In this document: positions 4,970-36,628 of the stretch, piece by piece
Layout: each line of letters begins with the position of its first letter
Position numbering within the stretch: position 1 is the stretch's first letter
Position numbers and translations under genes: made by a program
Notes under the pieces: model-generated
What the model saw: only the letters and a program-made list of their open reading frames with translations
Told to the model about the DNA's origin: nothing
Database searches by the model: none
Source of the DNA: a virus
Direction: 5' to 3' (one strand)
Length of the DNA: 36,840 nt
IMG/VR virus record: IMGVR_UViG_3300031215_000034
Location: 1-36,840 of that record

Positions 4970-5296
4970 ATGAAAGAATATTGAAAAGAAACGCAGAAAT
5001 GAAAGGTTATTAGAATTTTACTTGCAAATCCACAAAGGGTTCACCAAGTTGAAGATTTCATGCAGTACACATTGAATGATCTATTTGTATGATATGAAGC
5101 ATGAAGTAGATTATCGGAGCTTAAAAAGGATTGAATTGTTACACATGAAGTTTTTGAAAGAAAAAACAAGCCGGATAAATTTGGGTATATAATAAAAAAG
5201 AATTGTATTGAATTCTATACAAACCTATATGCGGAACAAACCACGCAAAATAAAGGTTTTATGGAAAAAATTTGATTAAAGAAGAAAAGTGAATAG
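4970..5296 (+). CDS. Putative winged-helix DNA-binding protein
   Basis: 108 aa. The order helix (VIRILLANPQRVHQVEDFM), Gly-containing turn (GYEAGSRLSELKKDGIVTH) and a basic beta-hairpin (EVFERKNKPDKFGYIIKK) looks like a winged helix: a recognition helix around SRLSELKKDG followed by the wing. It is the last gene before the structured intergenic element at 5321-5441 and the replication genes, so it may bind there. That is inference; the fold assignment is by pattern only. Confidence 0.6.
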
Positions 5297-5494
5297 TATT
5301 AAAAAGTAATTTGATTTAAAACCACAAGTGAATATAATTTACAGGATTTTTCGTTTAATAAAACGGAATTCAATAAAAAAGGCACATCAAAATCATACAT
5401 GATGTTCTAAAAGATACTTGTAAATTATATTCGCTTGTGGTAAAGAAATATAAATCAAAGAAGTGTCTTTTTTATTTGTCTAAAAATTCAGAAA
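5297..5494. other. Non-coding region, candidate origin or structured RNA
   Basis: 198 nt with no supported gene. It holds a closing inverted repeat (5321-5343 with 5419-5441) around two internal hairpins. It is placed directly upstream of the initiator-like and helicase-loader genes, where many phages keep their replication origin. An ATG at 5520 opens only a 10-codon frame. Confidence 0.55.
5321..5441. repeat. Long inverted repeat with two internal hairpins
   Basis: Arms of 23 nt at 5321-5343 and 5419-5441 match at 22 of 23 positions, and the single difference is a G-U pair in RNA. The 75-nt interior contains hairpin A (stem 5349-5356 with 5361-5368, loop AATA, one G-U) and hairpin B (5384-5389 with 5400-5405, 10-nt loop). 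Together these would form a three-way junction in RNA or a cruciform in DNA. Confidence 0.75.
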
Positions 5495-6160
5495 GTGAAA
5501 GAAACTTTTTATTTCTCGCATGATTATAATACGAGATCAGATCAAAAAATAAAGCAACTCATAAGAAAACACTGAATGCAATGATATTGATTATATTGGT
5601 GTATTGTTGAAGATTTATATCAAAATGCAAACGCATTACAATTGGATTTCAGTTGAATTGCGTATGATTTTCATATTGATGAAAAAATAGTAGAAAGTAT
5701 TATAAGTGACTTCAATTTATTTGTAGTAAAAGATGGTAAATTTTCATCAAAATCAGTATGAGATAGGTTGCAAAAAAGAGTAAAGAAAAGTGCAGTAGCA
5801 AGGGAAAACGCAAATATAAGATGGTGAAAGAAAGATGCAAACGCATTGCAAAAGAAATGCAAACCCAATGCTTTAAAGGAAAGTAAAGTAAAGGAAAATA
5901 AAGGAAAAGAAATTAAACATAAATATTGAGAATATAAAAATGTTTTAATAACAGATAAACAAAAAGAAAAATTCATAAAGGATTTTTGAAAAGATGTATT
6001 TGATTTATATATAAAAAAATTAGATGAATGAATACAAATGAAATGATACAAATACAAAGATCATAATCTTGCAATGAGAAAATGGAAAAATGGTGGTGAT
6101 GAAAAAAATAAAGATAAAATTGATATTTCTAGTGATGATATTATTTATGATAAAATATAA
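5495..6160 (+). CDS. Lin1244/DUF4373-type replication protein
   Basis: 221 aa. The start is taken as GTG 5495 because the conserved N terminus MKETFYFSHDYNTRSDQKIK lies directly behind it and no ATG is available before this motif. The domain continues with LIRKHGMQGYGLYWCIVEDL, matching the Lin1244/Lin1753-like N-terminal domain (yF.hD.nar.D.ki...G..GYGlYw..vE.L). A basic linker and a helical C-terminal segment (WKNGGDEKNKDKID) follow. Such proteins precede DnaC-type loaders in many phages and are believed to act as initiators or primosome organisers. Several glycines, including G-Y-G, are TGA. Confidence 0.82.
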
Positions 6161-6162
6161 AA

Positions 6163-6711
6163 ATGAGTGAAAAAGATAAAATAATTCAAAAATTCATTGA
6201 TGATTGTAAATTTAAACAAAGTTTGGTTTTAGCTTGAAAAACTTGAAGATGAAAAACACATATCATGACAAAACTATATTCTAAGCTTTCAACAAATGAA
6301 ATTATGAAAACTTATTACAAATATTGGATTGATGATTGACAAGTTAGAGAATATATCAATGCTTGAATTATGAATTTAAAAAACAACACAAAAGACAACA
6401 CAAATGAATATTGGGCTTACCCTTTAGAAATGTGCGTAAGGTGTAAATATTTATTTTTTGATGATTTAGGAGCAAGTGAAAATGTGAGCGACCCACAAAA
6501 AACAAAGTTGAAATATATTCTTGATGAAAGGCATAAAAGGGGGTTGATAAACATATTTTCAACAAACTGTTCACCACAGCATATTGAAAAATTGTATGGT
6601 GAAAGAATAAAATCAAGAATTTATGATGGAACCAAGAATGAAGTTTTAATTATCACTGTTGATGGTGAAGATAGGAGAAAAAAACAAGTTACATCTATAA
6701 AACTTTGATAA
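6163..6711 (+). CDS. DnaC-type helicase loader (AAA+ ATPase)
   Basis: 182 aa. Walker A is AGKTGRGKTH (residues 24-33), and all three of its glycines are TGA codons, the clearest proof of UGA = Gly in this window. Walker B is LFFDDLGAS (about 97-105), sensor-1 region FSTN, and box VII GERIKSRI with the arginine finger. It loads the replicative helicase, presumably the host DnaB since no phage helicase is seen. It follows the DUF4373 protein by 2 nt. Confidence 0.92.
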
Positions 6712-14488: not shown

Positions 14489-15163
14489 ATGCCAAGAAAG
14501 AAATGAAAGCAAGTAAAAAATGATTTTGTTGATTTCAATACAGATGAAGTTGCAGAACATATTTTAGCTAGTGAACAAGGGTGAACCAAAGCAGATGAAT
14601 TTGCAAAGCAAGATGCACCCGAAACTATCAAAACCCAAGAGGTTCAAAAGTCAAAACATTGAAATGAAAAATGTGGTTGATGTAAGAAGCAAAAAAAAGA
14701 TTGTGATTGTTGAAGAAATCCGGTAATAAATGAGAATGTATTGCGACTTTTGTATATGGCTTTTTGTATGAATTACACAGATGAACAAGCTTGTTTGTAT
14801 TCTTGAATATGAACGGCAACACTTTATAGATACCAAGATAAGAACCCAGAGTTTCGAGAGAGAAAAGTACTATTGCGTAATTCAACCAAGATGTACGCAA
14901 AAGCCAATATATTCAAATCACTTGTTGCATGAGATGTGGAGAACTCAAAATGGCTACTTGAAAGGCTAGAGAAAAACGAGTATTCAAGAAAAGATGTTGT
15001 TGAAAATACATCAATAATCACATTGCGTGACCCATTGCGTGAAAGGTTAGTACAGTTGAAACAAATGAAGAAAGAAAAGATGGAAGCTAGGCAAAAAAGA
15101 AAAGATGCAAAGAGTAAAGCAACCAAGCCAAAGAAGAAAAGAATTATTGTTGTTAAAAAGTAG
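14489..15163 (+). CDS. terS: Terminase small subunit
   Basis: 224 aa. An acidic N terminus is followed by a Cys cluster (CGGCKKQKKDCDCG, four Cys, likely zinc). The HTH-like terminase core follows: MNYTDEQACLYSGIGTATLY, RYQDKNPEFRERK, then SKWLLERLEKNEYSRKD, the pattern of small terminases (a.yaGis..tlyry....pef...k......s.wlLErk). The C terminus is strongly basic. It recognises phage DNA and feeds it to the large subunit encoded 50 bp downstream. Confidence 0.85.
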
Positions 15164-15177
15164 TTTGTGTATATTAT
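15150..15177 (+). promoter_or_regulatory. Putative promoter before large terminase
   Basis: TTGTTA (15150-15155), 16-nt spacer, TATTAT (15172-15177). It lies partly in the 3' end of terS. The leader continues to ACCACAAG just before ATG 15213. Confidence 0.4.
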
Positions 15178-15212
15178 ATAGAAAACAATGTAGCTTTTAA
15201 CACCACAAGTTC

Positions 15213-16730
15213 ATGAGTTCAATAAAATATCAAATGCTTTCACTTGCAGAAGTGAAAATAATTGAAGAGTTTGAACTTGAAGATACTCTTTGAGAAGATG
15301 AATATAAACAATTCGTGTACTCAAAGGGTTTTTTTGATATTGAATTTTTTGGTGATTACTTCTTGTGACATATAAAGGCTTGAAAGGATGGTAAGCACAC
15401 CGGAACACCCGCTTTCCATAAAGAGATCATGAAGTATTACACACAGTATGGTGAACTTGATATAAACTTGATTGTAGCAAGGCAACATGCCAAAACAACT
15501 ATTACATGGATTTATATGTTGTGGAAAGTGTTATATTATCCGAAAACAGCAATGTTGTATATTGCATCAAAGGGGCTTGGTGAAAAGACATTGTGAAAGA
15601 TTAGAAGAGAACTTGAAGTGAATGAACTTTTGGTGTGAGTATATGGGAACTTACAACCTAAGAATTCAGATGATCCACGAGATGCGAAGCTTTTAAGATG
15701 GAGACAAAGGGAACTTGAAATGTTGAATGGTTCATATCTCGAAAGTTTAACATCATGACAAAAGGCAAGGTGAACAAGGTTTGATGAAGTTGTAATTGAT
15801 GATCCACAAGAAGATGGTGATGCAGATACACCCAAGAAAGCACAAAAGTTTATTGATTGGTACAATAAAACGGTTGAATGATTGAATAAAGACTTGCGCA
15901 CAATTGTCATATGAACCATTGTAAGTGAACTTTGCTTTGTTAAGTACCTAAGAGATAAAAAAGGATGGTTCACGGTTCAATATGAATGATGTGATGCTAA
16001 TTTAGAAAACATATTATGGAAAGGCTTTTGGAGTAAGAAGCTTTTTAGGAAAAAAAGGGATTGATATTTCTATATTAACCCAAAGACATGAAAAAGATGA
16101 TTTAAAAAGTGAATGGGAACAGCATTTTTCAATCAAGAATATAGAAACATACCAATTTCAAAACAAGAAAGACCAATGAAAGATTATTGGTTACGATACC
16201 ACGCATGATTTAAAGAGTTTGATAAAATCATTATGGGTATTGATCCGGCAACTTGATTGAAAGAAGTAAATGATTTCACCGGTGTGGTGGTGATTGGGTT
16301 GATTGGCAACAATACTTATGAAATATTTTCAACTTGATTAAAGCTTTCACCAAATAAGTTACTTCAAACGGTGTACAACATATTCTTGAAGTACAAACCG
16401 GATGTGGTGATTAAAGAAGCCAATAAAGAAACCAAGCTTGCAGAAGATTTGATTATAAAAGGGGTTCCATTGCTTGATGTGTGGACTTCCAAAGATAAAT
16501 TTGTGAGAGCGGAAGCATTGGCATCATTGGTTGAAGCTTGATTTTGTTACTTCTTGGAAAGGCAAGAAAGTGAAAGGTGAATTGATGAAGATAAAGATTT
16601 AGTGTATCAAATGGTGAATTTTCCGGAAGTGAAGCATGAAGATGTGTTTGATGCTTGGATGATGTGCCAAGAGAACGCACAAACAGATTTTCTCATAGAG
16701 GGTGCAGAAGATGAAGTTGTTATTATTTAA
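15213..16730 (+). CDS. terL: Terminase large subunit
   Basis: 505 aa. ATPase: Walker A variant ARQHAKTT (about residues 89-96), Walker B VVIDDPQED (about 192-200) and a coupling region TIVIGTIVSE. Nuclease: IMGIDPATG then DFTGVVVIG (first catalytic Asp about 343), IKEANKETKLAEDL, and C-terminal HEDVFDAWMM (about 476-485). Cuts and pumps DNA into the prohead. Several functionally placed glycines (DPATG, VIGT) are TGA. Length is usual for the family. Preceded by ACCACAAG, 3 nt before ATG. Confidence 0.95.
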
Positions 16731-16741
16731 TTGTTGTTATT

Positions 16742-17215
16742 ATGCTTGTTGAAAAAGTGAAGATTTTTTTAAAAGACTATTCATTGAAAACCTTATGCAT
16801 TCAATCGTGAGTTCATGAAAGTGTTATATTATCACTTATAAAATGAGAGCATAAGAAATATCACCGCAATATTCTTGATATTCTCTATGCGTTTTTCAAT
16901 CTCAAAAAAGATGCATTTTATAGAGAGAATATGAAAAAGTGGTACCCAAAAACGGAAAGCTTGTTATGAACCCTTGTGAGGTTCAAAAGGGTGCGAATGG
17001 ATATTGATTTACAAGTTCTAGCAAAGCAAATAAAAATGAGTGATAGGGCATTGGCTAGGATTGAAAGCGGTGACAGCTTACCATATTACAATTCTTGGAG
17101 TATTCAACACATCATGGAAGTATTGAGGTTTTCAGATAGTGAAAAAAAGATGGTTGCAGATTATATTGATGTTATGAAGAAGATTGAAAAGATGGTACAA
17201 AAATATGAAATATAA
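16742..17215 (+). CDS. Two-domain helix-turn-helix regulator
   Basis: 157 aa with two HTH-like segments. The first is YSLKTLCIQSGVHESVILSL (about residues 14-33), the second an XRE-like RMDIDLQVLAKQIKMSDRAL followed by ARIESGDSLP. It is placed between terminase and portal, and its stop codon is the first base of a late-promoter-like motif (17213). Candidate for the phage transcription regulator, for example of the late promoter family, but that link is inference. A short terminase-associated DNA-binding protein is an alternative. Confidence 0.72.
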
Positions 17216-17247
17216 GACATTGAAACAAGAGTGAAAGCAAGTAAGGT
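17214..17247 (+). promoter_or_regulatory. Late promoter-like motif, copy 1 (portal)
   Basis: AAGACATTGAAACA with TTGAAA at 17220-17225, 16-nt spacer, TAAGGT at 17242-17247. Directly after the regulator stop and 28 nt before the portal ATG. The downstream hexamer is weak (TANNNT only). Confidence 0.45.
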
Positions 17248-17274
17248 GTAAATGATTTTATTTTTAATGCAGAA

Positions 17275-18591
17275 ATGATGCCAAAGAAAACAGCATGAGG
17301 TGTGCAAGTTATTAGGAAAACAAGCCAACAGGCTAAAGAAACAGATGAATTCAAGAACTTTGATGGGTTCATTGAAGCACCGGACTTTAAGAGTTTGGAA
17401 AGACTTTTTGAAGAAAGCTTTTTGGTTCCATGAGTTCTTGAAAAGATTGCATCAAGTGTATGAAGTAAGTTCATCACAGAAAATGAAGATTTGAAAACAA
17501 AGTTGAATTGAATAGATCACGATTTCTTGAATATGGCAAGGGAATTTTTTGGTATTACTTATTTTGAAATAATTAGAAATAAAAAAGGAAATGAAGTGAA
17601 GAGATTAGAACCGGTGATTACAAGTACCGTAAGAAAGCTTAAAAAAGGTTGATACGCACAGAAAGTTTGAACAAAAACAGTATATTTCAATGAATTCATT
17701 GGGAATGATGATGAAAGAAATAAACAAAAAAAGATTTGGGAAGCAACAGGAGTGAAACCAAATGAACTTTCAACAGCAAAAATACCATGATATAATCCAA
17801 AATTGAATGAATTATATGAATTCAAGAATGCAAATATCACTTCAAAGAATTATGGGCATTCAAAATTTGTATCTTCAATAGATCAGATTTTATTACTTTC
17901 TTCAATAGATGTGTATTTCTTAAACTTATTCAACAACGGTTGGATGAAAGTTTCTGTTATATCACCAAAGGATGCAAAAACAAAGCTTACAGTTACTTGA
18001 AAGAAAGTATTACAAACATTTCTTCAAAACAACATGAATGGGGTGCCAAATGCGTGAACACACGCACTTATTGATGTTGCAATAGAGAAAACAGATTTAA
18101 GTGATGATGTTGATACAAAGGCATTCAATGACAAAACAGAAGAGTTGTTGAAGAAAATAGCAATTGGGTTGAATATACCGTATGAAATACTTTTGGCGGT
18201 GGTATGAAATAAAAACACATCAACACAGGCATTGGAAAATTTCAATAATCATAAAGTGCTACCAATTCAATGAAGAAACTTGAAAGATTTTAAGAAAATA
18301 TTTGAGTGAGTAGAGGGGATTGATGATTTAGAGTATGAAGAGATTGATTTGAAAGATCAACTTGAAGAAATGAAAGTTGTTACTTGATATGTGAAACACG
18401 GTACAATATCACAAGAGCAAGCGAGAGAAAGGGCATGATGGGATGAACCAAGTGATGGTGATACTTTCTATACATGAACGCTTACAGATGATGAAGATGA
18501 AATAAAGGTGGATGAATGAGAAACAAGCCCATCAGAAAGCATTGAAAAGATTTTTAAAACTATTGAAAAAGATGTTAGAGAAAATTTATAA
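17275..18591 (+). CDS. Portal protein
   Basis: 438 aa. It resembles HK97-type portals (phage portal family): FLVPGVLEKIASSVGSKF near the N terminus, IDQILLLSSIDVYFLNLFNN in the middle, and LLKKIAIGLNIPYEILLAVV then GNKNTSTQALENFNN, a typical stem/clip sequence. A second in-frame ATG at 17278 is equally possible as start. Acidic C terminus. Forms the dodecameric DNA gate and packaging motor seat. The MuF gene starts 20 nt before its end. Confidence 0.88.
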
Positions 18592-20212
18592 GGAGAAAAT
18601 AAAAAAAACACTTCAAAAGGTTTTTGATTTATGATGAAGTGAGCTTGTAGCAATACAGGGTGATTTTTCAGATGCTATTGAAAAGATATTTGAAAGGATT
18701 TACAATGAAGCTTTGAAGAAAATTGAAAGCAATGTTGAAGTTAAAATGAATGATGCATTACTTGAAAATATAGCAAAGACGGTTGAAGAAGATGATATTT
18801 CAACATATAAAAAATACTTTGAAGATAGTTTTAGTATTGGATCAACAAAGCTTGATGCTTCAATTTGAAAGGAACCATGAGTGCAAGTTAAACTTGGTGT
18901 TAAACAGCAAGATGCAGTTGATTATGCACAGTCTTTTGCTTGAACCAAGATACAAGGTATTGATGATTATACTACAACACGCATTAATAAACTTGTGAGT
19001 GATGGGATTGAAAAATGATGGGGTTACAACAGGATTGCAAAAGAGTTGAAAAATGATTATGCTTTTTGAACATACCGTGCAAATCTCATAGCATCGCAAG
19101 AGGTTGGTGAAAGTTACTTGAATTGAAAAGATGTACAATTTAAGAGATACCGCAAAGAATATGGTGTGGATGGTTGGAAGCAATGGCAAAGCCACCGTGA
19201 TGCAGTCACAACACCGTGATGTATGCATAATGATTTTCAATGATGGATACCATACAGCCAAGATTTTGAAAGTGAATGAAACAAAGACAAGCCAACAAGA
19301 TTTATAGGGTGCAGATGTAATTTAAAAACAAAATTATTCAATCTTGATGAACAAGAGAGATTGACCGTTGATAATGAACCGGAGTTTTTGAAAGAACAAG
19401 GTATTACACTTGAAGATAAATGATTTACAGATGGTATAAAACCCAAGAATTACAACAAGCTTTCAACACTAAGTGTTCCGGCATCATATTTTAATGAAAT
19501 TTGAATGCCAAGTGAGTTCATAGGAAAATGAAGAGGGTTTTACAGAAAAAGTGTTGATGGATCAACAACAGTTGTGAACATTGGTAAAAGAACAGCAAGT
19601 GAGGTTGAAAAGAAGTTTACAGAAGCACATGAAGTTGGGCATTTCTTCTTTGAAGAGAAGATATTGAAAGATAGTGAAAAGCTTGAAAAATTCTTATGAA
19701 CATTCAAATCATCATTTGATGAATTACAAGAACTTACAAAAGATAAAACATTTTACAAGATAGCAACAGCGAAGTATACGAATGCTACAGCAAAGTTGAT
19801 TAAAGAAAATGTTGATGATATTGCAAGCCTTGCATCATATAAGGTTTCAACAGCAACCAAGAAAGTCAAAAGAAGATGAAGAACATATGAAGTGCAATAT
19901 GATGAAGTCACAGAAAGATTTAAAGAAGAAGTTGGTGCATTTCAAGATACTATTGGTGCATTAACAAAACAAAAGCTTGGTGCATGACATAGTTATTGAT
20001 ATTATACAAGCCAAGCATCTTTAAATAAAGAATTGCTTGTGTGAACATCTATGTTTTGAAGTGAATACAATGTAACAAGAATGCAAGCACATGAATTTTT
20101 TGCACACTTGAATGAAACGCACTTTTTGGATAATAAAGTATTGAAAGCAATGATGCCAAAGACATATGAAGCCATGAAAAGCTTTTATGAAGAAAATTGA
20201 TTTAGTTTTTAA
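18572..20212 (+). CDS. MuF head protein fused to a zinc metallopeptidase-like domain
   Basis: 546 aa, longer than a simple MuF protein. Residues about 160-260 carry the Mu gpF-like minor head pattern: ANLIASQEVGESYLNGKDVQ, a WKQWQSHRDAVTTPGC stretch, then GCRCNL. The second half has HEVGH at 353-357, the HExxH zinc motif, in FTEAHEVGHFFFEEK, and a later HEFFAH at 507-512 that may give the third ligand. MuF-effector fusions of this kind are known in phages and may be injected with DNA. Protease activity here is inferred from the motif only. Confidence 0.82.
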
Positions 20213-20221
20213 CATATTGTT

Positions 20222-20479
20222 ATGATTAGTATAGAAAATATTGTTGAAAAATATGAAGATATGTACGGTGATGAAGCAACAACATGAGTATTCACACCAA
20301 TATTTGAATGATTAAAGTTCAAAGAGAAGTTTGAAATTTTGGAAAAAGCATGATGAAGAAATATTGATGTTGAATATGATGATGAATTGATTGATGGGTG
20401 AAAGCTTGTGTATTCATGAGAAAAAGACAAAACATTTGATTTTCTTGAATTATTAAAAGACATTGAAACAGAAGATTAA
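20222..20479 (+). CDS. Hypothetical acidic protein (85 aa)
   Basis: 85 aa, acidic, two halves (ENIVEKYEDMYGDEATTG; FDFLELLKDIETED). Its last codons contain the AAAGACATTGAAACA motif, so the coding sequence and the late promoter-like element overlap. Unrecognised. Confidence 0.62.
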
Positions 20480-20490
20480 AACTATATAGT
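20456..20490 (+). promoter_or_regulatory. Late promoter-like motif, copy 2 (protease)
   Basis: AAAGACATTGAAACA with TTGAAA at 20463-20468, 16-nt spacer, TATAGT at 20485-20490. The hexamer is within the 10-bp palindrome ACTATATAGT (20481-20490). Located 29 nt before the prohead protease ATG. Confidence 0.55.
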
Positions 20491-20519
20491 GGCTATATTA
20501 TCAGTAAACAGGAATTTCA

Positions 20520-20903
20520 ATGGCAAATTTACAAATTATCAAGAAAGAAGCGAGTTTTAACACCATTCTTTTTGTTGCATTAGAGCCGGATAAAGAAGAT
20601 ATAAATGGTGACTTGATTAGTGAACTTGAAATTACTAAAACAGCACATGAATTTATGTTGAATATTCAAGAAAAGGTGGTTGATATAGATCACAAAGCAG
20701 AAGATAAAGTGGATGATGAAGATGCAAAGTTTGTTGAAAGCTATATTGCACCGGTTGATATATTACTTGAAAACGGTGAAACAATACCGGCATGATCTTG
20801 GATTATTTGAATGAAGTTTACACAAGTAATATTTGATGCGTTTGTGAATGGTGATTTTGTTTGAATATCTATTGAATGAGAGTGATACAGAATTGATGTA
20901 TAA
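20520..20903 (+). CDS. XkdF-like prohead protease
   Basis: 127 aa. The pattern matches the XkdF family of putative phage serine proteases: VALEPDKEDINGDLISELEI, AHEFMLNIQEKVVDIDHKAE, AKFVESYIAPVDILLENGE, IPAGSWIIGMKFT and a final GDFVGISIEGEG. The His in DIDHKA and the Ser in FVESYIA are the likely catalytic residues by family comparison. Matures the prohead or scaffold. Position before scaffold and capsid genes agrees. Confidence 0.82.
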
Positions 20904-20925
20904 TATTTATATAAAATTATTTAAG

Positions 20926-21138
20926 ATGGCAAAAAGTATTAAAGATATGGTGGTTTGAAATATAACACTTGTTACAAGTAACGAAACACCAGCAGTTGAA
21001 AAGGCTACAACAAAGTTTTCTATTTTCAAAACAGTTGCAAAGATGTGTTGAAAAGAGACTATTACGAAAACACAGAAAGAAGAGTTAAAGAAAATTGCAA
21101 CAAATTTAGAAAAGACATTGAAAAAGTGTTGAGAATAG
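20926..21138 (+). CDS. Small hypothetical protein (70 aa)
   Basis: 70 aa, basic, Thr/Lys-rich, with two Cys (AKMCGKE, LKKCGE). The C-terminal helix TKTQKEELKKIATNLEKTLK is probably coiled. The codons for EKTLK form the AAAGACATTGAAAAA motif upstream of the scaffold gene. Unrecognised. Confidence 0.6.
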
Positions 21139-21145
21139 ACACAAT
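21111..21145 (+). promoter_or_regulatory. Late promoter-like motif, copy 3 (scaffold)
   Basis: AAAGACATTGAAAAA with TTGAAA at 21118-21123, 16-nt spacer, CACAAT at 21140-21145. It lies in the end of the preceding gene and 46 nt before the scaffold ATG. Since it is coding, its resemblance could be chance. Confidence 0.35.
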
Positions 21146-21190
21146 GCATTTGTTGTAAAACATATATTTTATATTAATTACCTACTTTTT

Positions 21191-21685
21191 ATGAGTTTGA
21201 AAGAAAAGATAAAAAAGGTTGCACAACTTCAAAAAGAGAGTGCGGAACTTCTTTGAGAGGAAAAAACAACAGAAGCAATTGCAAAAATGACGGAAGCTTC
21301 ACAGCTTACAGATGAAATTGCAGATGAAGCAAAAGAAGAGGATGTTGAAACAACGAAAGTTGAAACAACGGATGCAGAAAAAGAAGCAATTGAAAAAACA
21401 GCCAAAGAAACAATCAAGAAATATGCAGATGCATATATTAGTGGTTCAGATTTTGCGGATGTTTTAAAACAAATTTTTGAAGCATCACAAATGTTTAAAG
21501 ATATGGAAAGTATCACAAAAACACTTGAGAAACTAGATTTTGAAAAAGTTATGGATGCAGTAGAGGTGATTGAAAAGATTGCAGATGAAGAAAGTGGTTC
21601 AACTTCTGTTGATCCATGAAAGGAGACAATCGAGAAAACGGAAAAACAAAAGGATGAAGAGATTTGGGATGATTTGGGGCTTTAG
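21191..21685 (+). CDS. Putative scaffold protein
   Basis: 164 aa, highly acidic and helical (AKMTEASQLTDEIADEAKEE; LEKLDFEKVMDAVEVIEK), of the size and composition of phage scaffolds, and placed between prohead protease and major capsid protein. Assigned from position and composition, not from a conserved motif. Ends with WDDLGL, TAG stop. Confidence 0.7.
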
Positions 21686-21716
21686 TTTTATATTATATTT
21701 TTAAAAATTTCTTATT

Positions 21717-22880
21717 ATGAGCATAAAAGAGAAGATCAAAAAAGCTTTTGATACGGGAACAGCTAATAGCGAGCTTGTTCACCTAAATCCGACACAAGCG
21801 GATAAATTCATTGATTACATTGTTGATGAAAGTAAAATCATGCAAGATGCAAATGTTGTAAGAATGACTACACCAACAAAGAAAGTTGCAGAAATTGATA
21901 TTAATGATGATATTTTTGTTCCATGAGTACATGCAACAGAAGTTGATGAAACCATTAAAGCAAGTGCAATGAAAAAAGAACTTGTTTCAAAAGAGATTGT
22001 TTGAATGGTTACCATTTTTGACAATGAACTTGATGATAATATTGAATGAAATGCATTCAAAGATCATCTTATGAGAATGATTGCTAAAAAAGGAGCAACA
22101 CAGCTTGAAAAAGTTGGTATGTATGCTAAAAAAGTTGATGCACCGGTTTCACTTATGGGAATGTTTGATGGGTTCATTACTCAAATCAAGAAAAACGGTG
22201 GTTCTGTACTAGATGCAACAGATACAAATATTTTTGCAGATAGGTATATTGATAGAACAAAAATGAGTAAACTCTACAAATCAGTTGAAGAAAAATACCG
22301 TGAGCTTATAGATGTTCTCTATGTACCATGAAACATAATGTTAGATTATGAAGATAAATACCTAGAGGGTAACACTAGAGTTCCAACGGATCGACTTGGT
22401 AAACTAGGATTTACAGAAGCCAACATTATTGGTAGATCAAGAGCAGTTCCAAAAACATCATGATTTGCAACAGAACTTTCTTCGGATGTTACAGCCGGAG
22501 ACACAACAGCAGATGTTGATAGTGCAACAGGTATTACAGCCGGAGCAAGTATTGCTTTTGCACTTGATAATGGACAAGAGCATATTACAAAGGTTGTAAG
22601 TGTATCAACAAATACTATCACAGTAGCGGATGCGTTCACATACGATATTGATAGTTCAAGTGCAACAATAAATAAAGTTGTTGAAGTTCTTACAGATGCG
22701 GTTGATGTACTTATTATGGCAAAAAACAACATGCTATACGGTATTCAAAAAGACATCACAATAGAGCCGGAAAGAAAAGCAAGACTTAGAGCAACACACT
22801 TTATCTTCACAGCAAGAATTGATGTATTACTTCTAAACCCAAATCTTTGTGCATTACTAGAGGGTGTAAAATCTCGATAG
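21717..22880 (+). CDS. Major capsid protein
   Basis: 387 aa. HK97-fold-type layout: an N-terminal arm, then VRMTTPTKKVAEIDINDDIF, ELVSKEIVGMVTIFDNELDD, and a C-terminal domain ending ATHFIFTARIDVLLLNPNLC then ALLEGVKSR. An insertion of about 60 residues rich in Thr/Ala (SSDVTAGDTTADVDSATG then ITAGASIAFALDNGQEHITK) looks like a surface beta domain. Only 5 of about 22 glycines are TGA. CTC, CTA, CGT and GGA codons are more common than in neighbours, as expected for a highly expressed gene. Confidence 0.87.
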
Positions 22881-22882
22881 TC

Positions 22883-22919
22883 TAAAAGACATTGCAACAA
22901 GTTATAAAATAGATACTGT
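22883..22919 (+). promoter_or_regulatory. Late promoter-like motif, copy 4 (after capsid gene)
   Basis: AAAAGACATTGCAACA with TTGCAA at 22892-22897, 16-nt spacer, TACTGT at 22914-22919. The predicted start at about 22926 falls at the 3' arm of the hairpin 22906-22935. Confidence 0.45.
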
Positions 22920-22942
22920 AAAAGGTGTCTATTTTATTTTTA
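22906..22942 (+). terminator. Terminator after major capsid gene
   Basis: 11-bp stem (22906-22916 with 22925-22935, one G-U) with an 8-nt loop, followed by ATTTTTATT. Ends the scaffold-capsid transcript. Overlaps the promoter-like motif at 22883-22919. Confidence 0.75.
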
Positions 22943-22956
22943 TTATTACACATATT

Positions 22957-23598
22957 ATGCCAAAGAATACGACAAAAAAAGCAACGAAAACTAAAAATGT
23001 TGCAAAAAAAGGTGAAGAAAAAACACCAAAAACATTAAAAATGATTAATGCTTGAAACATCATATATAACGGTATAAGACCGGATGAAACAATAAACATC
23101 ACACCGGAGTATAGAAAGAAATATGAAGCCAAAGGATTTTGTTTAATTGATGATTATGCAAAGAGAATAAAAAGCAGAAATGATGCTAAAATTAAAGCAG
23201 ATGTGGATGTTCTACAAGCAGAAGAGGATAAGAAAGAAGAGCAAAGAAGAATTAAAGCAGAACAGAAAAAGCTAGATGGTGAAGCACAGAAAAGAAAAGA
23301 GCTTGGTGAAGATGAAGTTGAAGAGGATGATGAAATTGAAGAAGAAGAGTTTGATGATGAAGAAGATGAAGAGGATGAAACAGATGAAGAAGAGGTTGAA
23401 GAGGATGGTGAAGAAGAAACGGATGAAGAGGATCAAGAAGATGAAGAAGAGGTTGAAGAAGAAGTTGAAATTGACTTAGAAAATGGAACAATTCAAGATT
23501 TTAAAGCATTTGCAAAAGAATTTGATATTAAAGTTACTTGAAGAGCAAAAGAGGATTATAAGAAAGCAATTGAAGCTTATATTGAGAAACAAAAATAA
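22957..23598 (+). CDS. Acidic protein with SAP/HeH-like C terminus
   Basis: 213 aa. A basic Lys/Thr N terminus and a short beta domain (LKMINAGNIIYNGIRPDETI). Then comes an extreme acidic stretch of about 60 Glu/Asp residues (about residues 120-165). The C-terminal 35-residue helix-extended-helix module (TIQDFKAFAKEFDIKVTGRA then KEDYKKAIEAYI) is like SAP/HeH domains found in phage head-tail proteins. Probably a capsid- or connector-associated protein; the exact role is unknown. Confidence 0.72.
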
Positions 23599-23619
23599 TA
23601 TTTAATTTCAGAAAAAGGG

Positions 23620-24186
23620 ATGGAATACACAACACTTGAAAATCTCAAAGAGTATCTTTGAATTGAAACAACAGATAATTCAAAAGATGCTTTGCTTTGA
23701 AGATTAATAAAAACCGTCACAAAACAGTTTGATAAATATTTGGGTTTTTCATTATGAGAAAATACATATAAGCAATACTTGAGTTCATACGGTGAATTCA
23801 TTGTGGTTGATTATTTACCGGTTGGTAAAATTATTACAATGAAAGAAAGCAATCCCACCGGTGCAAGTTTATCAAAAGATAGGATTGATGAATGAATAAT
23901 TTATTTATCACGATACTTTGAATGAACTGTATACATAGAATACAAAGCATGATACACAAGGCTTGATGATATTGCAGATGTTGAACAGGCTTGTTTGGAA
24001 ATATGCACATTAACTTACAATGACAACCCAAATAGCGGTGCGGAAACAAATGTAAAATCAAAAAAGATTGAAACATTATCAAAAACTTTCTTTTCAAAAT
24101 GAGAAATGCAATGATGAATTCAAATGAACTTCCGTGAAGTTTTAGATAACTACAAACCAAACATTTATAATCCTTTAAGAATATAG
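23620..24186 (+). CDS. Head-tail connector (gp6-like adaptor)
   Basis: 188 aa. N-terminal helical part YTTLENLKEYLGIETTDNSK, ALLGRLIKTVTKQFDKYLGF, and the segment EGTVYIEYKAGYTRLDDIAD then VEQACLEICTLTY are typical of gp6/gp15-type connectors that bind below the portal. Placement right after capsid genes supports it. TAG stop. Confidence 0.78.
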
Positions 24187-35060: not shown

Positions 35061-35549
35061 ATGGCAAAACAAAGAATTATAAAAGTTAGATTATACAAGC
35101 ATACAACAACAAATTTTTGAAAGCTTATTGTATTTAAGCAAAGAAGAAAATATGAAAACAGATATGCGAGATATTCACATGCAGAACTTGAATTTGAAAA
35201 TGGTTTTTCTTTTTCATCAAGTGAACAGGATGGTTGAATTAGGTATAAAATGATTGAATTTACGAAACAAAATTGGGATTACATCAATATAGAAGTTTCA
35301 GAAGAACAATATGATGCGGTAAAATTATTTTGTGATAGGCAAGTATGAAACAAGTATAATTGGTATTGAATAGTATTTGCAATGGCATTGAATATAAATA
35401 TCAAACGAAAAGGTGATTGGTTTTGTAGCGAGATAGTAACAAGAGCATTACAAGAAGCCCATATACTATGTACAGAAAGTTCACTTTTTGTTGATCCATG
35501 AAAACTTGCTTTGTTACTTGAAGAAAATTGATATAATATTGAAGTGTAA
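35061..35549 (+). CDS. Permuted NlpC/P60-like (YiiX-type) cysteine hydrolase
   Basis: 162 aa. The pattern HAELEFENGFSFSSS with His40 early, and WFCSEIVTRALQEA with Cys122 late, is the circularly permuted papain-like order (His before Cys) of the YiiX/C92 group. Such enzymes cut amide bonds in peptidoglycan or lipoproteins. In this lysis cluster it is a candidate endolysin component. Motif-level assignment. Confidence 0.7.
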
Positions 35550-36527: not shown

Positions 36528-36569
36528 GTATAACCCTAAGAGGGGAGAGGGGTTTGAAATAACACTATT

Positions 36570-36608
36570 AAAACACTATCAATTTATAATCAATTGATAG
36601 TGTTTTTA
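36570..36608 (+). terminator. Terminator at end of the late/lysis region
   Basis: Perfect 15-bp stem (36570-36584 with 36592-36606), 7-nt loop, T-rich 3' side. Separates the lysis genes from the promoter at 36629. Confidence 0.8.
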
Positions 36609-36628
36609 TATATTATATGTTCAAATAT

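Follow-up and report, generated by a model that had tools for sequence, protein, structure and literature searches.

Two Interleaved Helices before the Replication Initiator Gene of a Phage and Its Relatives: A Candidate Leader RNA Switch

1. Introduction

Positions 5321–5476 of a 36,840-base virus record (IMGVR_UViG_3300031215_000034, positions 1–36,840; this whole stretch is called the window below) can on balance be read as the structured 5′ leader RNA of a replication operon, which would control the expression of the initiator gene as an attenuator or as a pseudoknot switch, and which probably sets the amount of replication protein made. Two pairings (helix A and helix B) are directly observed, as are their position before the initiator gene, the topology common to related phages, and the covariation of paired positions in these relatives.

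2. The Virus, Its Genetic Code and Gene Order

Judged from its reading frames, the window phage reads TGA as Gly (code 25). This code is required, since only then does the Walker A motif of the helicase loader read LAGKTGRGKTH, and the main genes are open under that code only. Code 25 is used by Gracilibacteria/Absconditabacteria and by certain of their phages (PMC10746230). The genes are arranged in the order of Erf-like annealing protein, exonuclease, NinB/Orf, a gap, the initiator and the loader, followed by Holliday resolvase, SSB and methyltransferase, and then by the terminase, portal, head and tail genes. None of the scanned window proteins could be recognised as an integrase or repressor. 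The two genes after the gap, which the initial annotation had called initiator-like and helicase-loader genes, are identified here as a Lin1244_N initiator and a DnaC-like loader. Although TGA stands for glycine throughout this virus, its initiator shares 42–49% identity over the full length with those of several phages that use the standard code, many of them of Bacteroidota type. Furthermore, the protein at 35061–35549 matches PHROG 1128 (enoyl-CoA hydratase/carnitine racemase-like, category moron/host takeover), and a 22-nt inverted repeat with a 1-nt spacer at 36566–36610, near the right end of the record, is a possible terminator. A second record, L120 (IMGVR_UViG_3300031403_000128), contains a 9.2-kb stretch without the element that is 100% identical to window 14736–23911, from which it follows that the virus recurs between records.

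3. Helices A and B in the Window

The gap is non-coding under code 25 at 5297–5494 (198 nt); the ORF before it ends at 5296, and the initiator begins at 5495. The features in and around it are as follows:

5272–5299, + strand: candidate promoter TTGATT-16-TAGTAT, 21 nt upstream of A5′ (putative, a weak pattern match)
5311–5338, + strand: second promoter-like site, TTGATT-16-TATAAT, overlapping A5′
5321–5345, + strand: 5′ strand of helix A (A5′), pairing with 5417–5441
5349–5368, + strand: inner hairpin 1 of the three-way junction, in the minimum-energy fold
5372–5388, + strand: 5′ strand of helix B (B5′), within the loop of helix A, pairing with 5460–5476
5380–5408, + strand: inner hairpin 2, core 5384–5389/5400–5405, in the minimum-energy fold
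5417–5441, + strand: 3′ strand of helix A (A3′), pairing with 5321–5345
5460–5476, + strand: 3′ strand of helix B (B3′), T-rich, ending 19 nt upstream of the initiator start
5495–6160, + strand: replication initiator, Lin1244_N domain (PF14297), GTG start, code 25
6163–6711, + strand: DnaC-like helicase loader, code 25

Helix A consists of 25 bp, two of them G-U and the others fully matched, and its arms are the best inverted repeat in the whole window. The initial annotation had described 23-nt arms (5321–5343/5419–5441) enclosing two hairpins; these arms are indeed complementary at 22 of 23 positions, with T-G at the other one, and further pairs on the inner side bring the helix to its full 25 bp. 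Of the two hairpins, that at 5349–5368 is present exactly so in the minimum-energy fold, and that proposed at 5384–5405 is the core of a second hairpin with a wider span (5380–5408). The predicted folding energy of the 5315–5450 RNA is −44.7 kcal/mol, against −15.1 ± 3.0 in shuffles (z −10, 0 of 200 shuffles). For the window and 18 member loci of the class described below, no family in Rfam 15 scored above its gathering threshold, and permissive thresholds gave nothing meaningful (best weak match MIR9555, 28.2 bits of 119); ARAGORN returned no tRNA or tmRNA match.

The second helix, B, had been overlooked. It pairs at 16 of 17 positions and gives the strand order A5′-B5′-A3′-B3′, that is to say, the two helices are interleaved rather than nested. 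When the loop and the downstream stretch were shuffled separately, 1 of 1000 shuffles gave as good a helix B given A, and the combined score of A and B is 85.1 against a maximum of 53.7 in 1000 leader shuffles. These figures bear on the view that the structure is nothing more than the terminator of the upstream gene, or a hairpin stabilising its mRNA, and that A and B interleave by chance in AT-rich DNA. A GC content of 27% does make A/T pairings easy, and the window's own sequence has no homologue, but both shuffle results, together with the recurrence of this topology at the corresponding site of other phages, render this explanation very improbable.

In its composition, helix B of the window is AT-rich, with a T-run inside the stem rather than a GC-rich stem followed by a T-run. 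Inner hairpin 2 overlaps B5′ and therefore competes with helix B, and the T-rich B3′ can alternatively pair with the start region GAAAGTGAAAGAAAC. In nested folding, A alone is predicted to be 21 kcal/mol more stable than B alone, so a switch between the two states would have to be kinetic or driven by a factor.

As for the promoter-like sites, the distance of TTGATT-16-TAGTAT to A5′ lies within the range between promoter box and A5′ in the relatives; 5 sigma-70-like sites were found vs 5.6 expected from shuffles, so there is no excess. Positions 5269–5346 form a 39-nt tandem repeat (28/39 match), equalled by 7 of 1000 shuffles, which holds both TTGATT-16-TAGTAT and TTGATT-16-TATAAT, and the second copy of which extends into A5′. 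The repeat possibly represents tandem promoters or operators.

4. Survey of Related Initiator Leaders

Relatives of the initiator were collected from viral contigs and genomes, giving 349 loci with an initiator match, 162 distinct leaders and 88 clusters. One fixed test was applied, in which B must end at most 45 nt from the start, A must be interleaved with it, and the pair must reach p < 0.02 against the leader's own shuffles (first-order Markov resamplings; p < 0.02 is the floor with 60 shuffles). The thresholds were set after the window, L006 and L039 had been viewed, so these three are not independent, and the controls share the same thresholds. Interleaved A and B were found in 25 of the 88 cluster representatives (p < 0.02). 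Among other gene starts in the same contigs they were found in 2 of 200, plus 3 of 150 with an upstream gap of at least 100 nt; the comparison of 25/88 with 5/350 gives a Fisher probability of about 1e-14. About 60 of the 88 clusters lack the element by the test, and no significant element was found in cultured phages and plasmids with related initiators (EF62phi, LBR48, JNU_P2, a Porphyromonas phage and a Crassaminicella plasmid); in Flavobacterium phage morran9-1 the upstream gene overlaps the initiator (annotation only). Across the 25 clusters with the element, leader sequences are unrelated, and the order A5′-B5′-A3′-B3′ is kept. The homologous structure that the initial annotation called for upstream of relatives' initiators thus exists, though not in all relatives, and what is shared is architecture rather than sequence.

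The Bacteroidota promoter box TAnnTTTG lies 2–29 nt upstream of A5′ in 16 of the 32 leaders examined, against a background of 0.1 per 115 nt, and the RNA is therefore predicted to start near A5′; on the reverse strand the box is not enriched in members. T-runs before the ATG occur in 17 of 25 members vs 19 of 53 (p 0.014). L051, L039 and the L161 family are members without a T-run. A second interleaved element was seen in L028 (4206–4415), where TATCACCC/GGGTGATA and a 26-nt T-ended stem precede an 85-aa ORF situated about 600 nt ahead of the initiator, with a promoter region of the TATAAT type.

A promoter box near A5′ together with a terminator-like B in many relatives is also what a stand-alone small RNA gene would have, with its own promoter and terminator and with other targets, placed before the initiator by chance. 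A small RNA was among the options first raised, and a possible one in so far as many relatives have both the box and a terminator-like end. As a gene independent of the initiator it is improbable, because the terminator adjoins the initiator ATG (3–20 nt) in many families and the element tracks the initiator gene rather than other genes.

5. Structural Forms and Covariation

The commonest form has two hairpins. One lies close to where the transcript is predicted to begin and exposes a loop of 7–8 nt; the other, which has the GC-rich stem and T-run of a terminator and adjoins the ATG, carries the exact complement in its own loop. In one family the kissing loops are GTAGGAT/ATCCTAC, GTCAGAT/ATCTGAC, GTCGGAT/ATCCGAC and GTAAGAG/CTCTTAC; in another they are GTAGTGAG/CTCACTAC, GGAGAGAG/CTCTCTCC and GTCGAGAT/ATCTCGAC; in a third they are CTTCGAC/GTCGAAG, TATCGAC/GTCGATA and CAACGAC/GTCGTTG. 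With the kissing helix included, pairs changed on both sides number 12 in family A5, 11 in family A6 and 15 in family A7, in which 240 of 240 cells are paired; each count was reached in 0 of 500 shuffles, and in all three families the signal is lost when the partner is slid by one base. The initiators of the five A5-family loci compared are 96–98% identical.

In the second form, a long helix encloses a loop that pairs with the strand before the ATG (the window, L006, L039 and L051), and the 19-nt distance between B3′ and the start recurs in L006. The family whose shape comes closest to that of the window is L045/L161, with a three-way junction, two inner hairpins and a loop-to-pre-start pairing; its covariation is weaker (4 pairs, 30 of 500 shuffles as high). 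In L161 (2907–2980) and the L045 family, the core of the three-way junction, GGTTGCTCAGGCATGGGCGTAAAAGGTTT.CACGTTACCTT, hardly varies, and a loop pairs with a strand downstream; the core resembles a ligand- or protein-binding RNA and has no Rfam match.

These forms also bear on a translational pseudoknot switch, in which pairing of B5′ with B3′ would open or close ribosome entry to the initiator without a stop in transcription, like IncI-alpha repZ. In its favour, B3′ is separated from the start by 19 nt in both the window and L006 (a distance that the test caps at 45 nt in any case), the T-run is missing from L051, L039 and the L161 family, and the window's T-rich B3′ has its other possible partner in the start region. 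On the other side, members show an excess of T-runs ahead of the start, and B has a textbook terminator shape in families A5, A6 and A7. Such a switch is a real but distinctly less probable alternative.

6. Selection on RNA or on DNA

Scoring G-T and A-C mismatches alike, the members' helices contain 33 G-T vs 10 A-C (p 6e-4; p 0.003 against shuffles). An initial count of 54 vs 13 carried a bias from the scoring by which members had been selected, and the count of 33 vs 10 is that obtained with symmetric scoring. Since mismatches favour G-U over A-C, selection would act on RNA of the initiator strand, which is unexpected for a DNA cruciform. The initial annotation had suspected selection at RNA level from a single wobble, and its proposal of a cis-acting RNA controlling the operon gains support from the same topology and place in relatives, the compensatory changes and the lean of mismatches to G-U on the mRNA strand.

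Another of its proposals, a replication origin extruding a cruciform, gains no support from the data, the G-U bias included. A search for an origin in the window found a monotonic GC skew, without a turn near 5.3 kb, and no iteron array, only one 39-nt tandem pair. More generally, the element might act at the DNA level, either as an origin or cruciform or as repressor operators formed by the 39-nt tandem repeat and an inverted AAGYGAATATAAT copy in A3′. For this speak the repeat itself, rarely equalled in shuffles, and the TATAAT inside an arm of helix A, in addition to the earlier proposal. The complementarity of the arms, however, exceeds the shared 13-nt motif, and the class has a bias to the RNA strand and covariation of both helices, so that a DNA-level element, lacking a skew turn and iterons as well, is unlikely.

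7. Membership of the Window in the Class

The window is assigned to the interleaved-helix initiator leaders on the grounds of its position, its topology and a single partial DNA match to another code-25 phage. First of all, the window has the interleaved order directly upstream of a Lin1244_N initiator, beyond its shuffles. The leader of this code-25 phage (L033/L034) is of the kissing/terminator type: CGCGAAAAA with loop TTTTTCGCG, and stem ATAAAAGAGATAG/CTATCTCTTTTAT. The L034 leader and gene start match window 5466–5520 (82% over 56 nt, E 3e-6, low-complexity filter off); about half of the matched stretch belongs to the start of the coding region, and the match was not recovered when that record was searched again, so that it suggests a link of modest strength. 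Apart from B3′ and the start region, the element's sequence is unrelated to that of any relative; compared with the kissing form, the window has a much longer helix A and a much larger loop in B. For close relatives of the window, a search with the loader found none, a search with the terminase found only L120, outside the element, and a search of viral contigs for the exact arm pattern found none; the covariation counts come from families of relatives, and no close relative spans the window's own helices.

8. Proposed Mechanism

In the proposed attenuator or pseudoknot switch, the counterpart of the window's B, with its T-rich 3′ strand, would be the hairpin that resembles a terminator in related phages; A would match the pairing of that hairpin's loop with an upstream strand, in many relatives a kissing loop, by which the hairpin would be clamped. 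A and B may be alternative or coupled states deciding between a premature stop and readthrough into the initiator gene, the balance of which could be set by the amount of leader RNA or by another factor, as in plasmid copy-number attenuators. In the nascent RNA, A can presumably form before B3′ has been made; in long-armed members, B would then form only by threading or displacing A, and in short-loop members, it would form as a kissing pseudoknot. The outcome would govern whether transcription reads through into the initiator gene, or whether the start codon of that gene is accessible.

The coordinated changes of loop pairs among near-identical phages, whose stems vary too, invite the speculation that earlier copies of the leader act in trans. 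A bolder and rather doubtful reading is that an undescribed, widespread class of phage leaders serves as a self-antisense copy-number or immunity device, of which the window would be the long-armed TGA = Gly version. The short terminated leader would carry both the loop and its complement, and earlier copies would kiss the nascent leader in trans, shutting or opening the replication operon.

9. Comparison with Known Systems and Significance

In the I-complex leader, the loop of a hairpin pairs with the strand just before the start codon to form a pseudoknot. In these plasmids (IncI-alpha/IncB), the antisense RNAI/Inc acts as a competitor, kissing the leader hairpin of repZ/repA, and sets specificity (PMC10724649). 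The present element is likewise a structured leader of a replication initiator mRNA, and helix B of the window, as also in L006, L051 and L161, is a pairing of a leader-hairpin loop with the strand before the start. The partner loop, however, lies in the same leader here and in a separate opposite-strand antisense RNA in the I-complex; no antisense promoter signal is seen here (no reverse-strand box enrichment in members), the sequences are unrelated, and host and gene family differ. The loop-pair changes among near-identical phages resemble the incompatibility loops of plasmids (PMC10724649).

In the pT181 attenuator, kissing of hairpin loops decides on an intrinsic terminator before the initiator gene (PMC4878617). 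The pT181/pIP501 rep attenuators share with the present leaders the initiator leader itself, the intrinsic terminator before the gene and the use of loop kissing for sensing. The pT181 switch is an antisense RNA, and there one strand is common to the anti-terminator and the stem of the terminator, whereas here A and B lie on separate, interlocked strands. Phages themselves have short structured RNAs complementary to leaders of replication or immunity genes, namely the P4 CI RNA, which involves premature termination, and the P1/P7 c4 RNA. Unlike these, the present element has no Rfam match and its complementary pair lies within one leader; the RNA model of one subfamily matched nothing in 395 Bacteroidota genomes, a null of little weight.

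By analogy, the element would work most like the initiator leaders of plasmids (I-complex, pT181). RNA leaders gating replication initiators are well known in plasmids; the self-complementary, interlocked design appears to be new. In the literature covered, with subscription papers largely outside its scope, no such leader class was found for phages of Bacteroidota or of code-25 candidate phyla. A sequence that is free to change, with two interlocking helices kept beside the gene that starts replication, makes a directly testable RNA switch. It might also underlie compatibility or superinfection exclusion in uncultivated phages, and if the self-antisense reading is true, the 7–8 nt loops would define compatibility groups among otherwise near-identical phages.
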